NCBI RefSeq assembly: GCF_029210485.1
Contig: NZ_JARGET010000033.1
Location: forward strand, 1 to 64,000
DNA from: Hoeflea sp. YIM 152468
GTDB lineage: Bacteria; Pseudomonadota; Alphaproteobacteria; Rhizobiales; Rhizobiaceae
Direction: 5' to 3'
Length of the DNA stretch: 64,000 nt
Part shown: one piece after another, positions 1,990 to 6,160 of the stretch
Layout of the letters: each line of letters opens with the position of its first letter
How positions within the stretch are numbered: the first letter of the stretch is position 1
Notes under the pieces: model-generated
Database searches by the model: none
What the model saw: the letters and a program-made list of their open reading frames with translations, nothing else
Told to the model about the DNA's origin: nothing
Position numbers and translations under genes: made by a program

Positions 1990-4908
1990 ATGACTGAACT
2001 GAAATCCATCACCATTCGCGGCGCCCGCGAGCACAATCTGAAGAATGTCGATCTCGATCTGCCGCGCAACAGCCTGATCGTGATGACCGGGCTGTCGGGG
2101 TCGGGCAAATCCTCGCTGGCGTTCGACACCATCTATGCCGAGGGCCAGCGCCGCTATGTCGAAAGCCTGTCGGCCTATGCAAGACAGTTCCTCGAGATGA
2201 TGCAGAAGCCCGATGTCGACCAGATCGACGGGCTGTCGCCGGCGATTTCCATCGAGCAGAAGACCACCAGCCGCAACCCGCGCTCGACCGTCGGCACGGT
2301 GACCGAAATCTACGATTACATGCGGCTGCTGTTTGCCCGCGTCGGCGTACCCTATTCGCCCGCCACCGGGCTGCCGATCGAAAGCCAGACCGTGAGCCAG
2401 ATGGTCGACCGGGTGCTGATGCTGGAAGAAGGCACCCGGCTTTACATTCTTGCGCCGGTGGTGCGCGGCCGCAAGGGCGAGTACCGCAAGGAACTGGCCG
2501 AGTTCATGAAAAAGGGCTACCAGCGGGTCAAGGTTGACGGCCAGTATTACGAAATTGCCGATGCCCCGGCGCTCGACAAGAAGTACAAGCACGATATCGA
2601 CATCGTTGTCGACCGCATCGTCGTGCGGCCCGATATCGCCTCGAGACTGGCCGACAGCCTGGAAACCTGCCTGCGGCTGGCGGACGGGCTGGCGATTGCC
2701 GAATTCGCCGACAAGCCGCTGCCCGGCAGCGAAACCTCGGAAGGCTCGGCCAACAAGTCCAAGAACGAAACCCATGAGCGGCTGCTGTTTTCGGAAAAAT
2801 TCGCCTGCCCGGTGTCCGGCTTCACCATTTCCGAGATCGAGCCGCGGCTGTTTTCGTTCAACAATCCGCACGGCGCCTGCCCCACCTGCGATGGTCTCGG
2901 TACCCAGAAGAAGATCGATGAGGCCCTGGTCATCCCCGAGCCGCAGCTGACCTTGCGCGGCGGCGCCGTGGCGCCCTGGGCCAAATCCAGTTCACCCTAC
3001 TACACCCAGACGCTGGAAACGCTGGGCAAGCATTTCGGCTTCAAGCTGGGCGACCGCTGGGAAGACCTGCCGGTGGCGGGCCAGACCGCCATCCTGCGCG
3101 GCACCAGTGAAAAGATCGCCTTCAAATATGATGACGGCCTGCGCTCCTACACCACCTCGAAGACCTTCGAAGGCATCATTCCCAATCTGGAGCGGCGCTG
3201 GAAGGAAACCGACAGCGCCTGGGCCCGCGAAGAGATCGAGCGCTACATGTCGGCCGCGCCCTGCCCGGCCTGCGACGGCTACCGGCTCAAGCCCGAGGCG
3301 CGCGCGGTCAAGATCGATGGCTGTCACATCGGTGAAGTCACCGAGCTGTCGATCCGCCGCGCCGGCGGCTGGTTTGCCGATTTGCCGTCGCGGCTCAACG
3401 AGCAGCAGAACCAGATTGCCGTGCGCATTCTCAAGGAGATCCGCGACCGGCTGAAGTTTCTCAATGATGTCGGGCTCGACTATCTGACGCTGTCGCGCAA
3501 TTCCGGCTCCTTGTCGGGCGGCGAAAGCCAGCGCATCCGGCTGGCCTCGCAGATCGGGTCGGGCCTTACCGGGGTGCTCTATGTGCTCGACGAACCCTCG
3601 ATCGGCCTGCATCAGCGCGACAATGCGCGGCTTCTGGAGACGCTCAAGCATCTGCGCGACATCGGCAACACCGTGATCGTTGTCGAACACGACGAGGACG
3701 CGATAATGAGCGCCGATCATGTGGTCGACATCGGCCCTCATGCCGGCATTCACGGCGGCGAGATCATCGCCCAGGGGACGCCCGGCGACATCATGGCCAA
3801 TCCGCGCTCGATCACCGGCAAATATCTCTCCGGCGAACTCGATGTGGCGGTGCCATCAGACCGGCGCAAACCCGTCAGGAAAAAGGAAATCAAGGTCTTT
3901 GGCGCCCGCGGCAACAATCTCAAGAACGTCACCGCCGCCATTCCGCTGGGTGTGTTCACGGCGGTGACCGGGGTGTCGGGCGGCGGCAAATCGACGTTCC
4001 TGATCGAGACGCTGTACAAGGCCGCTGCGCGCCGGGTGATGGGCGCACGCGAAACCCCCGCCGATCACGACCGCATCGACGGGTTCGAGCACATCGACAA
4101 GGTGATCGACATCGACCAGTCGCCGATTGGCCGCACGCCGCGCTCCAACCCGGCCACTTACACCGGCGCCTTCACCCCGATCCGCGACTGGTTTGCCAAT
4201 CTGCCCGAAGCCAAGGTGCGCGGCTATCAGCCCGGACGCTTTTCGTTCAACGTCAAGGGCGGCCGCTGCGAGGCCTGCCAGGGCGATGGCGTCATCAAGA
4301 TCGAAATGCACTTCTTGCCCGATGTCTACGTCACCTGCGATGTCTGCCATGGCAAGCGCTACAACCGCGAAACCCTCGAGGTCACCTTCAAGCAGAAATC
4401 GATTGCCGATGTGCTCGACATGACGGTCGAGGAAGGCGTCGAGTTCTTTGCCGCCGTTCCCGCCGTGCGCGACAAGCTCAAGGCGCTCGAGGGTGTCGGT
4501 CTTGGCTACATCAAGGTCGGCCAGCAGGCCAACACGCTTTCCGGGGGCGAGGCGCAACGGGTCAAGCTGGCCAAGGAACTGTCCAAGCGCTCGACCGGTC
4601 GCACGCTCTACATTCTCGACGAGCCGACAACCGGGCTGCATTTCCACGATGTCGCCAAACTTCTCGAAGTGCTGCACGAACTGGTCAATCAGGGCAATTC
4701 GGTGGTGGTGATCGAGCACAATCTGGAAGTCATCAAGACCGCCGACTGGGTCATCGATCTGGGCCCCGAAGGCGGCGACGGCGGCGGTGAGGTCGTTGCC
4801 GAAGGCACCCCCGAAGACATCGTCAAGGTCGAGCGCAGCTACACCGGCCAGTTCCTCAAGCAATTATTGGAACGGCGCCCGGGGCGACGGGTGGAAGCGG
4901 CGGAGTAG
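1990..4908 (+). CDS. uvrA: Excinuclease ABC subunit A
   Basis: A 972-residue UvrA, the damage-recognition ATPase of nucleotide excision repair. Visible: first Walker A ([14 protein letters not shown]) near residue 35, the first zinc module, an ABC signature ([15 protein letters not shown]) near 510, second Walker A ([14 protein letters not shown]) near 660, second zinc module (CEACQGDG ... [10 protein letters not shown]) near 760, second signature ([14 protein letters not shown]) near 850. In the first zinc module one expected Cys is Ser (CPVSGF). The start at 1990 ([14 protein letters not shown]) fits the family; an upstream in-frame ATG at 1939 adds 17 unrelated residues. Its last 129 bases recur at 5454-5582. 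Confidence 0.97.
4780..4908 (+). repeat. uvrA-tail repeat, copy 1 (inside uvrA)
   Basis: The last 129 bases of uvrA, including its TAG stop. The same stretch recurs at 5454-5582 with about 9 substitutions (roughly 93% identity by eye). It ends in GGCGGAGTAG, whose GGAG is placed to act as the ribosome site for the small gene starting at 4911. Confidence 0.93.
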
Positions 4909-4910
4909 GA

Positions 4911-5234
4911 ATGGACGATCTGGCTGTCCGGCTACGACAGCGTATAGCAAGCGGCAGTTTCAGGGTCTCCGATCATGCTCAGGCGCGATTGGATGAACGA
5001 AGTCTGTTGCTGTCGGATATCCTGGCCAGCGTTCCGTCGTGGTCAATTGTCGAAATCTACGAAGACAACCGGATGGGGCCGTCGCTCCTTGCCAAGCATG
5101 AACTACCGGCTGGTCCGGTTCACGCTGTCTGGGGTATGATCGATAAAAATGCAGTTCATGCCGTCCTCGTGACGGTCTATCTGCCTGACAAGGAGACGTG
5201 GGATGAGCAGTTCACAATCCGGCGCAAGATTTGA
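4911..5234 (+). CDS. DUF4258-like small protein (module 1, first gene)
   Basis: A 107-residue protein starting 2 bases after the uvrA stop and using the GGAG of the uvrA tail as ribosome site. It resembles DUF4258: an N-terminal SDHAQARLDER patch, a central PAGPVHAVWG strand, and a C-terminal VLVTVYLPDKETWDEQF motif. DUF4258 proteins are small and compact, related to RelE/MqsR-like folds, and often encoded beside a small antitoxin-like gene (family knowledge). Here the 81-aa gene follows with a 32-base overlap. A paralogue with the same motifs lies at 5583-5909. Toxin activity is inference. Confidence 0.8.
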   Translation: MDDLAVRLRQRIASGSFRVSDHAQARLDERSLLLSDILASVPSWSIVEIYEDNRMGPSLLAKHELPAGPVHAVWGMIDKNAVHAVLVTVYLPDKETWDEQFTIRRKI

Positions 5235-5448: not shown

Positions 5449-5582
5449 GCGAGGGCGGCGGCGCCGTCGTTGCCGAAGGCACCCCCGAAGACATCGTCAA
5501 GATCGAGCGCAGCTACACCGGCCAGTTCCTCAAGGAACTGCTGGAACGGCGCCCGGGGCGACGGGTGGAAGCGGCGGAGTAA
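5445..5582 (+). pseudogene. Duplicated uvrA 3' end (repeat copy 2)
   Basis: A 45-codon open stretch starting at GTG 5445 (overlapping the previous stop as GTGA) and ending TAA. From 5454 it repeats the last 129 bases of uvrA with about 9 changes, in the same frame ([20 protein letters not shown]...). It is not a functional UvrA. It again ends in GGCGGAGTAA, and that GGAG serves the next small gene starting at 5583. The fragment therefore looks like a carried-along landing sequence that keeps the translational coupling. Confidence 0.9.
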
Positions 5583-5909
5583 GTGAGCGAGACCTTTACA
5601 ATTGTTGTCTCTTTGATTGAACAAGAGAGGTTCGAGGTTTCACTTCACGCTTTGCAGGAACTGCTCAATGACGGCATTCTGATCGAGCCGCTGATCGGTG
5701 CAGTCGGTGATGGCATTGTTGTGGAAGACTATCCGGATTACCATAAAGGACCGGCGGTCCTGCTGTTGCAAAGAGACGAGTTTGGGCACCCTATTCATCT
5801 GGTATGGGGAATTCCAAGAGATGCAAGGGAACCAGCTGTGCTGGTGACGGCGTATCGACCCGATCCGACAAAATGGGACAAGAGCTTCACGCTGAGGGAA
5901 AGGTCATGA
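5583..5909 (+). CDS. DUF4258-like small protein (module 2, first gene)
   Basis: A 108-residue protein beginning with GTG immediately after the stop of the duplicated uvrA tail. It shares the layout of the 4911-5234 product: RFEVSLHALQEL near the N-terminus, HPIHLVWG in the middle, and VLVTAYRPDPTKWDKSF at the end. The two are clearly diverged, so they are not a recent tandem duplication. It overlaps its partner gene by 4 bases (ATGA). Function is unknown; toxin-like by analogy with other DUF4258 pairs. Confidence 0.8.
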   Translation: MSETFTIVVSLIEQERFEVSLHALQELLNDGILIEPLIGAVGDGIVVEDYPDYHKGPAVLLLQRDEFGHPIHLVWGIPRDAREPAVLVTAYRPDPTKWDKSFTLRERS

Positions 5910-6160
5910 CCAGGATATCAACGCAGCTGTTGCGCGAAGGCGATGTTGTCGCGGAGGTGGAAGTCATCCTGCACAATGGCGATCATGACTGGACGCCGAC
6001 GGTCGACCTTGGTTCGATTCGCAAGCTGGACTCCGTGCGCAGGGCTTTGCGTGCTGGCGATGTCCGGACCGCCGCAAAGAATGCGAGACTCTATCGCCGC
6101 GTCAAAGACGACTTGGCCCAGGAGTTCGCCGAGCCTCCACAGCCAGACTTGAAGCTGTAG
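5906..6160 (+). CDS. Small partner protein (module 2, second gene)
   Basis: An 84-residue protein, ATGA-coupled to the DUF4258 gene, with ribosome site AGGGAAAGG. It shares the KLDSVRRALRAGDVRTAAKN helix pattern and preceding beta strands with the 81-aa product of module 1. No known domain recognised. It has a longer charged tail (VKDDLAQEFAEPPQPD). No further uvrA-tail copy follows it, so the array ends here. Confidence 0.75.
   Translation: MTRISTQLLREGDVVAEVEVILHNGDHDWTPTVDLGSIRKLDSVRRALRAGDVRTAAKNARLYRRVKDDLAQEFAEPPQPDLKL

Follow-up and report, generated by a model that had tools for sequence, protein, structure and literature searches.

The window, i.e., the whole stretch of DNA that was analysed, comprises positions 1 to 64,000 (64,000 nucleotides, forward strand) of contig NZ_JARGET010000033.1 from Hoeflea sp. 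YIM 152468. In this stretch, uvrA is followed by two small modules, each consisting of a DUF4258 gene (D) and a partner gene (P), and a copy of the end of uvrA is located between them. All of the features described here lie on the forward strand. The uvrA gene (1993..4908) is intact, encodes 971 aa from this start, matches the Pfam families UvrA_inter (7e-39) and UvrA_DNA-bind (8e-36) and ends in ...RVEAAE-stop (GCGGCGGAG-TAG); it constitutes the putative landing site of the modules. The first DUF4258 gene, D1 (4911..5234, 107 aa, Pfam E 9.2e-9), starts 2 bases 3′ of the uvrA stop codon, and its partner P1 (5203..5448, 81 aa) overlaps it by 32 bases. The uvrA-tail copy (5449..5582) lies directly 3′ of the P1 stop codon and ends in GCGGCGGAG-TAA, and the second DUF4258 gene, D2 (5583..5909, 108 aa, Pfam 2e-14), begins with a GTG codon 0 bases past this copy. 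Its partner P2 (5906..6160, 84 aa) is 34% identical to P1 over 61 aa and 81% identical to its counterpart in the congeneric genome G009 (G and L numbers are our handles for the compared genomes and loci).

The duplicated target segment (4775..4908) extends from the GGCGGCGG site to the uvrA stop codon. The resulting direct repeat is 133 nt long and 93% identical (4775-4907 versus 5449-5581), and a 141-base query including the uvrA tail matched these two places and no others in the genome (E ≤ 0.001). A first-pass annotation of this DNA had reported the recurrence of the tail with about nine changes, a DUF4258 gene within 0-2 bases of each tail, and tails that supply GGAG and the stop codon. 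All three observations were confirmed: 120 of 129 bases match, with 9 changes, the distances are 2 and 0 bases, and GGAG stands immediately 5′ of both stop codons. Its view that the pairs are diverged and the tails nearly identical also held, with 36% identity between D1 and D2 over 96 aa and 34% between P1 and P2, versus 93% for the tails, which rules out a simple tandem duplication. Tails and modules have different histories, the divergence of the modules being far greater.

The four small genes look real, since their ratios of non-synonymous to synonymous substitution (dN/dS) were 0.10-0.25 in 10 gene comparisons, which are signs of purifying selection. An assembly artefact is excluded because the arrangement was seen again in independent assemblies. 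As for signs of an insertion sequence or transposon, no transposase was found among the genes at 4909-5582, and no inverted-repeat pair of at least 20 nt brackets this segment (shorter ones were not searched). The unit consists of D and P only and encodes no recombinase; the search did not extend to integrases in the neighbourhood of uvrA. We also considered SOS control. The motif GAACN7GTTC, which is the SOS-box type of alphaproteobacteria, was absent between ssb and uvrA with up to one mismatch; one exact match was located within D2 (5619-5633) and one within uvrA, and the window total of 33 did not exceed the chance expectation, as 11 of 100 shuffles attained it. A GTG codon overlapping the P1 stop codon opens a 45-aa frame (5445-5582) whose product corresponds to the UvrA C-terminus. 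Translation of the tail copy from this codon (GTG 5445) is not claimed, as the in-frame start was found in G017 and was missing in G003, G069, G084 and G350.

The D and P proteins

The AlphaFold model of D1 had a predicted local distance difference test (pLDDT) score of 83.6, with residues 96-107 poorly modelled. Its top Foldseek match was MqsR (3hi2_D; probability 1.00, template modelling (TM) scores 0.62/0.71, E 5e-3), and no Foldseek match reached E ≤ 0.001. D is predicted from this model to have an MqsR-like fold of the BECR/RelE type, and its DUF4258 match in Pfam exceeds the cut-off. Searches of Pfam, NCBIfam and PADLOC with P1 gave nothing at E ≤ 1; P belongs to no known antitoxin family, and its model had no PDB match with E ≤ 0.001. 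PMC11980606 lists DUF4258 among the BECR-fold toxins, with the target unknown, and mentions DUF4258-MqsA fusions; its table gives the gene order as antitoxin/toxin (A/T). We infer that D-P is a toxin-antitoxin (TA)-like pair, with D as the candidate toxin and P as the candidate antitoxin.

Two loci carry another gene in front of P. In G015 (L028 737-1453), a HEPN-like gene (HEPN_Apea, 0.006, below the cut-off) takes the place of the middle of D1 before P1. In L085 (G425), directly behind uvrA, a protein without a Pfam match, which we take to be HEPN-like by its RN..IH motif only, replaces D before P. This suggests an exchange of putative toxins before a constant candidate antitoxin P.

Distribution of the modules and the interval behind uvrA

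A profile of P detected the gene in 19 of the family's 394 genomes, the window's among them, which represent 14 of 109 genera; in 15 of 397 genomes drawn from the order (14 of 396 apart from the window's own); and, in a draw from the class, in the window's genome only (1/385). The gene is found behind uvrA in 26 of the 33 P-positive genomes (16/19 in the family, 10/14 in the order draw), which illustrates the recurrence of this address. Among the remaining seven, P stands at other genes in G078, G171, G235, G770 and G411, has no uvrA in its flanks in L092, and lies at a contig edge in L091, which could not be placed. Relatives of P are scattered in distant phyla, and uvrA was found in the flanks of none of them. 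Two loci contain P without a recognisable D: in L072 (Viridilinea) it lies between hypA- and hypB-like genes, and in L074 (Brocadia) behind a VapBC-like pair, the names having been read from sequence.

The interval behind uvrA was compared across 18 Hoeflea genomes. In the window, its far border is a DUF72 gene (6216..7016, Pfam 1.1e-60). The distance from the uvrA stop codon to DUF72 ranged from 34 to 4272 bp in the 16 other genomes with a DUF72 match (none was found in G009), and the interval is nearly empty in G002 and G004. By tblastn, D1-P1 or its remnants occur in six genomes including the window, and D2-P2 in two, the window and G009. The single G009 module lies directly 3′ of uvrA and shares 78-79% of its amino acids with D2. 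The first-pass annotation had proposed to look for 0, 1, 2 or more pairs at related uvrA 3′ ends; genomes of the genus carry 0, 1 or 2 modules, and the content varies. In some, an unrelated gene has its start close to the uvrA stop codon (at -3 to +16 bases), namely an HNH gene (G006, L033), a DUF4145 gene (G001, L030) or a gene without a Pfam match (G005 at L044, G017 at L042); no good uvrA-tail copy was found directly 3′ of them. The uvrA-DUF72 interval is a general variable spot. Remnants of the uvrA tail were detected by nhmmer behind P1 in G003 (7e-7) and G017 (1e-4). Two further ideas were rejected. The uvrA end is not recognisable as an attachment site conserved at the DNA level in Hoeflea, as the tail does not surpass the rest of the compared uvrA stretch in codon identity, and a module younger than the species split was not seen by synonymous sites.

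The association with uvrA across an order could be understood if uvrA-D-P had been duplicated once, in an ancestor, with the tail between the pairs, after which gene conversion kept the tails alike and lineages lost one module or both. The divergence of the D1 type, which is comparable to that of uvrA, agrees with such an ancient array, as do the decayed D1-P1 remnants in Hoeflea and the retention of D2-P2 alone in the genome G009. We nevertheless consider this explanation improbable. Under it, the vast majority of lineages must have lost the modules, given that a P gene was detected in 19 of 394 family genomes. Moreover, D and P types from different bacterial families, and from uvrA and other sites, are mingled (11 family changes and 5 site changes in a tree into which broken D or P genes entered with their best-matching stretch alone).

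Junctions, tail copies and target genes

Tail repeats were sought in 26 uvrA-linked modules and 6 others. For each, as many as 250 bases preceding D were aligned locally with the 250 bases following P, and the score was set against those of 200 shuffles. The D start was set at the uvrA stop codon in G249 and L080, where none was found. D2-P2 of the window, G280, L085, G003, G008, G015 and G017 were outside this test, and G003, G008, G015, G017 and G280 were inspected separately 3′ of P. At the left junction, D or its remnant starts within 30 bases of the uvrA stop codon in 20 of the 26 modules. Long direct target repeats flank the insert in 10 of the 26 uvrA-linked modules, each scoring above all 200 shuffles (shuffle maxima 33-44), and in 1 of the 6 others, i.e., in part of the modules. 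The scores of the uvrA-linked repeats were 230 in the window, 224 in G084, 193 in G350, 186 in L087, 164 in G301, 134 in G175, 107 in G069, 95 in L082, 89 in L084 and 63 in G249. Two candidates were not counted: the repeat of G117 (score 150) lies 3′ of the uvrA stop codon and looks like a dispersed repeat, and that of G235 was marginal (40 versus a shuffle maximum of 39).

In nine of the ten repeats (all except L082), the copy begins in or beside the internal uvrA segment GGCGGCGGCGA, and the gap to the assumed end of P is 0-10 bases. In part of the cases, the right junction thus lies at an internal GC-rich look-alike of the gene ending, with a host-type tail between the two junctions. The repeats measure 72-134 bp at uvrA and about 72 bp at the MT-A70 gene described below; since nine of the ten uvrA copies share one boundary, the variation is limited. 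A search with the uvrA end matched 366 of 394 family genomes at E ≤ 0.01. Exactly six (G000, G069, G084, G175, G301 and G350) gave two matches and the other 360 a single one. All six carry a module, so the duplication goes with the module and not with the site in general. G350 contains a second, degraded P, followed by what by eye appears to be a second degraded tail; remains of an array, as suggested by the first-pass annotation, are thus present there too.

Non-uvrA modules provide insight into what defines the target. They follow an MT-A70 methyltransferase gene (G770), an AAA ATPase gene in two genera (G235 and G171; AAA_5 in Pfam, presumably MoxR-like), a NuoF-type gene (G078) and hemC (G411). 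The MT-A70, MoxR-like and NuoF genes all end in Ala-Ala-Glu-stop, which accounts for four of the five non-uvrA modules, and uvrA has this ending in 26 of 28 loci. The ending is rare: it was found in 2 of 339 open reading frames (ORFs) in 400 kb of five genomes plus the window, one of the two being uvrA, and the window's genome contains the exact sequence GCGGCGGAGTRA four times, including once within the tail copy. It can precede insertion, because MoxR-like genes without a module carry it in 9 of 13 genomes. The need for a GGAG ribosome site may contribute to the choice of target; alone it would not select Ala-Ala-Glu, because 8 of the 339 ORFs end in GGAG-stop. The idea that the site is specifically linked to repair was not upheld, as modules also stand behind the MT-A70, MoxR-like and NuoF genes, whose common trait with uvrA is the Ala-Ala-Glu-stop ending. 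In two further loci, a stretch behind uvrA ends in a copy of the uvrA ending (GCAGCGGAGTAA and GCGGCGGAGTAG), namely in L081 (G755, about 200 bp behind the uvrA stop codon) and in L112 (G265, before D1). The L081 stretch with this ending is another small ORF. The two loci look as if other cargo had docked behind uvrA too.

The P gene itself ends in Ala-Ala-Glu-stop in L082, L088, L089 and L090. As this ending closely resembles that of the target, these modules are bracketed by gene-end sequence, as would be the case if a recombinase acting in trans used the gene end as an attachment core and the cassettes were its non-autonomous satellites. The usual left junction at GCGGCGGAG-TRA is also in line with site-specific integration. 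Against it stand the lack of a recombinase in the module and the absence of D matches in plasmids, phages and viral contigs and of P matches in viral contigs (plasmids and phages were not searched with P). Furthermore, we know of no integrase that produces host-type duplications of 70-134 bp. Integration of this kind appears very improbable.

The module behind MT-A70 is followed by a duplicate of the MT-A70 tail, a 72-base repeat behind P with 53 matches and a score of 60 versus a shuffle maximum of 32. A second target gene has its own tail duplicated in this way. The G770 module at MT-A70 and the G175 module at uvrA are sisters in the tree (100/96), and related modules at two genes therefore carry two different tails. 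This bears on the first-pass annotation's proposal that pairs are acquired by recombination at the uvrA tail. A recurrent landing site is supported, and homologous recombination at the uvrA tail is insufficient alone because the MT-A70 module duplicates the MT-A70 tail. The observation behind that annotation is confirmed, and its interpretation is partly supported.

To trace the origin of the tail copies, each was compared with 61 uvrA tails. The copy was closest to the uvrA of its own genome in six of the ten, which include the better-preserved cases (window, G350, G301, L087, L084 and L082). In L087, which belongs to another family, the copy is 86.7% identical to its own uvrA and 70.5% to the next. 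For the copies of G084 and G175, the own uvrA ranked second, and a congener ranked first in both. The module of G350 groups with another genus (100/97), and a single clade of G350 and its congener G265 was rejected (p-AU 0.009, in an approximately unbiased test chosen after seeing the tree), while both G350 tails are of its own genus type. Insertion with target duplication predicts this combination of a foreign module and home-made tails, which gene conversion could produce as well. In G301, the left part of the copy is decayed and shared with G249 and the right part is fresh, so conversion or recombination seems active on the tail repeats.

These features could also arise if a single ancestral event had produced the order tail-D-P-tail, which then spread by RecA-type recombination through the uvrA-tail arms, with crossovers within the tail making the copy resemble the recipient's. 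Such spread would account for the constant junction between P and the tail, for the host-like copy and for the mosaic copy of G301, and the direct repeats would also permit clean excision. It cannot target the MT-A70, MoxR-like and NuoF genes, nor duplicate an MT-A70 tail, and it does not explain why the sister modules of G175 and G770 each have the tail of their own target. In addition, distinct module lineages (the D1 type, G175, L087 and L084) have a common tail-copy boundary. This speaks against homologous spread from one event, and the presence of the copy behind all four types alike argues against the ancient array as well. We regard homologous spread as an unlikely sole explanation, and it may also act within the family through the tail arms.

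A proposed cassette that inserts behind gene endings

With a probability of roughly 0.56, D-P is a TA-like cassette without a recombinase that inserts behind genes ending in GCNGCNGAR-TRR and can duplicate the tail of its target. The cassette would insert just 3′ of the stop codon of such genes, most often uvrA. The left junction usually falls at the gene ending, so that the host gene stays whole and may lend its transcript and GGAG ribosome site to D. The right junction varies; when it falls at the internal look-alike GGCGGCGGCGAG, ~130 bases inside uvrA, the tail is duplicated behind the cassette. The duplicated tail would recreate the docking sequence, and a second cassette could then land ahead of the older one. 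In the window, D2-P2 most likely came first and D1-P1 landed in front of it. Joining might proceed by microhomology, end-joining or template switching, with a short similarity as a guide, and homologous pairing on the uvrA side perhaps precedes it. P genes of the D1 type terminate in AAGGTGGCG, which looks similar to the sequence that uvrA has immediately ahead of the boundary (AAGGCGGCG); this would fit joining by short similarity.

Several results weigh against insertion by such a cassette. The left junction at a gene end and the Ala-Ala-Glu ending are usual, not universal: the G411 module lies 68 bp behind hemC, which lacks this ending, uvrA itself lacks it in L080 and L085 (2/28), and two of the five non-uvrA modules share one target gene (MoxR-like). 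The left junction is unclean in 6 of the 26 tested modules: uvrA and D are separated by 188-701 bp in G265, G117, G309 and L081, G249 lacks the start of D, and no D was found in L080. No uvrA-tail copy was detected in 16 of the 26 uvrA-linked modules, and the L082 copy is 89 bp away from P. The G084 copy is marginally closer to a congener than to its own uvrA, the decayed copies of G069 (rank 5 of 61) and G249 (rank 7) are not closest to theirs, and gene conversion between tails could mimic a host origin. Finally, synonymous sites show D1+P1 to be at least as diverged as uvrA, and the D1-type tree agrees for the most part with the genera; much of the inheritance of D1-P1 may therefore be vertical.

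A more far-reaching version of the cassette proposal appears to us doubtful. It describes a site-programmed mobile TA cassette of a new kind, whose ends would match GCGGCGGAG-TRA gene ends and an internal look-alike by short sequence, with no recombinase needed. The host gene would be left whole and its expression taken over, while its own tail would be duplicated and the docking site rebuilt.

A literature search found no paper linking DUF4258 with uvrA, and nothing related by title on a uvrA integration hotspot or on TA genes downstream of uvrA. Among known systems, the MqsRA-type type II TA systems with DUF4258, as presented in PMC11980606, resemble the modules in the DUF4258 domain, the predicted MqsR-like fold and the small adjoining partner. 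The order A/T given there is the reverse of that found here, where D comes first, if D is the toxin. P also differs in being neither MqsA nor another known antitoxin.

Integrative elements are known to occupy the 3′ ends of genes, such as SCCmec in rlmH, SGI1 in mnmE and e14 in icd. D-P shares with them the landing at the end of a conserved gene that is left intact and the tandem accretion at one site. Unlike them, it has no recombinase, measures about 0.55 kb and carries a long host-type tail copy.

Insertion with long target duplication was reportedly described by Nobusato et al. in 2000. According to two reports (PMC3031569, PMC1643837), restriction-modification genes are inserted with long direct target repeats. 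D-P is similar in being a small gene complex with long target repeats and apparently no transposase, in repeats that could allow amplification or excision, and in relatives without the insert being single-copy (360/366 here). It differs in its cargo, which is DUF4258 and P and not restriction-modification, in the use of the same position, the uvrA stop codon, across an order, and in a duplicate that starts at a recurrent internal site, with most targets sharing Ala-Ala-Glu-stop. These features hint at a route, so far little known, by which small genes that lack a cut-and-paste enzyme could reach a preferred address. If such modules use the translation signals of gene ends, as is suggested, this may indicate where others can be sought. 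The mechanism of joining is testable, since D-P favours a single address, seems to have landed several times independently and has left a footprint that can be read in the host sequence.

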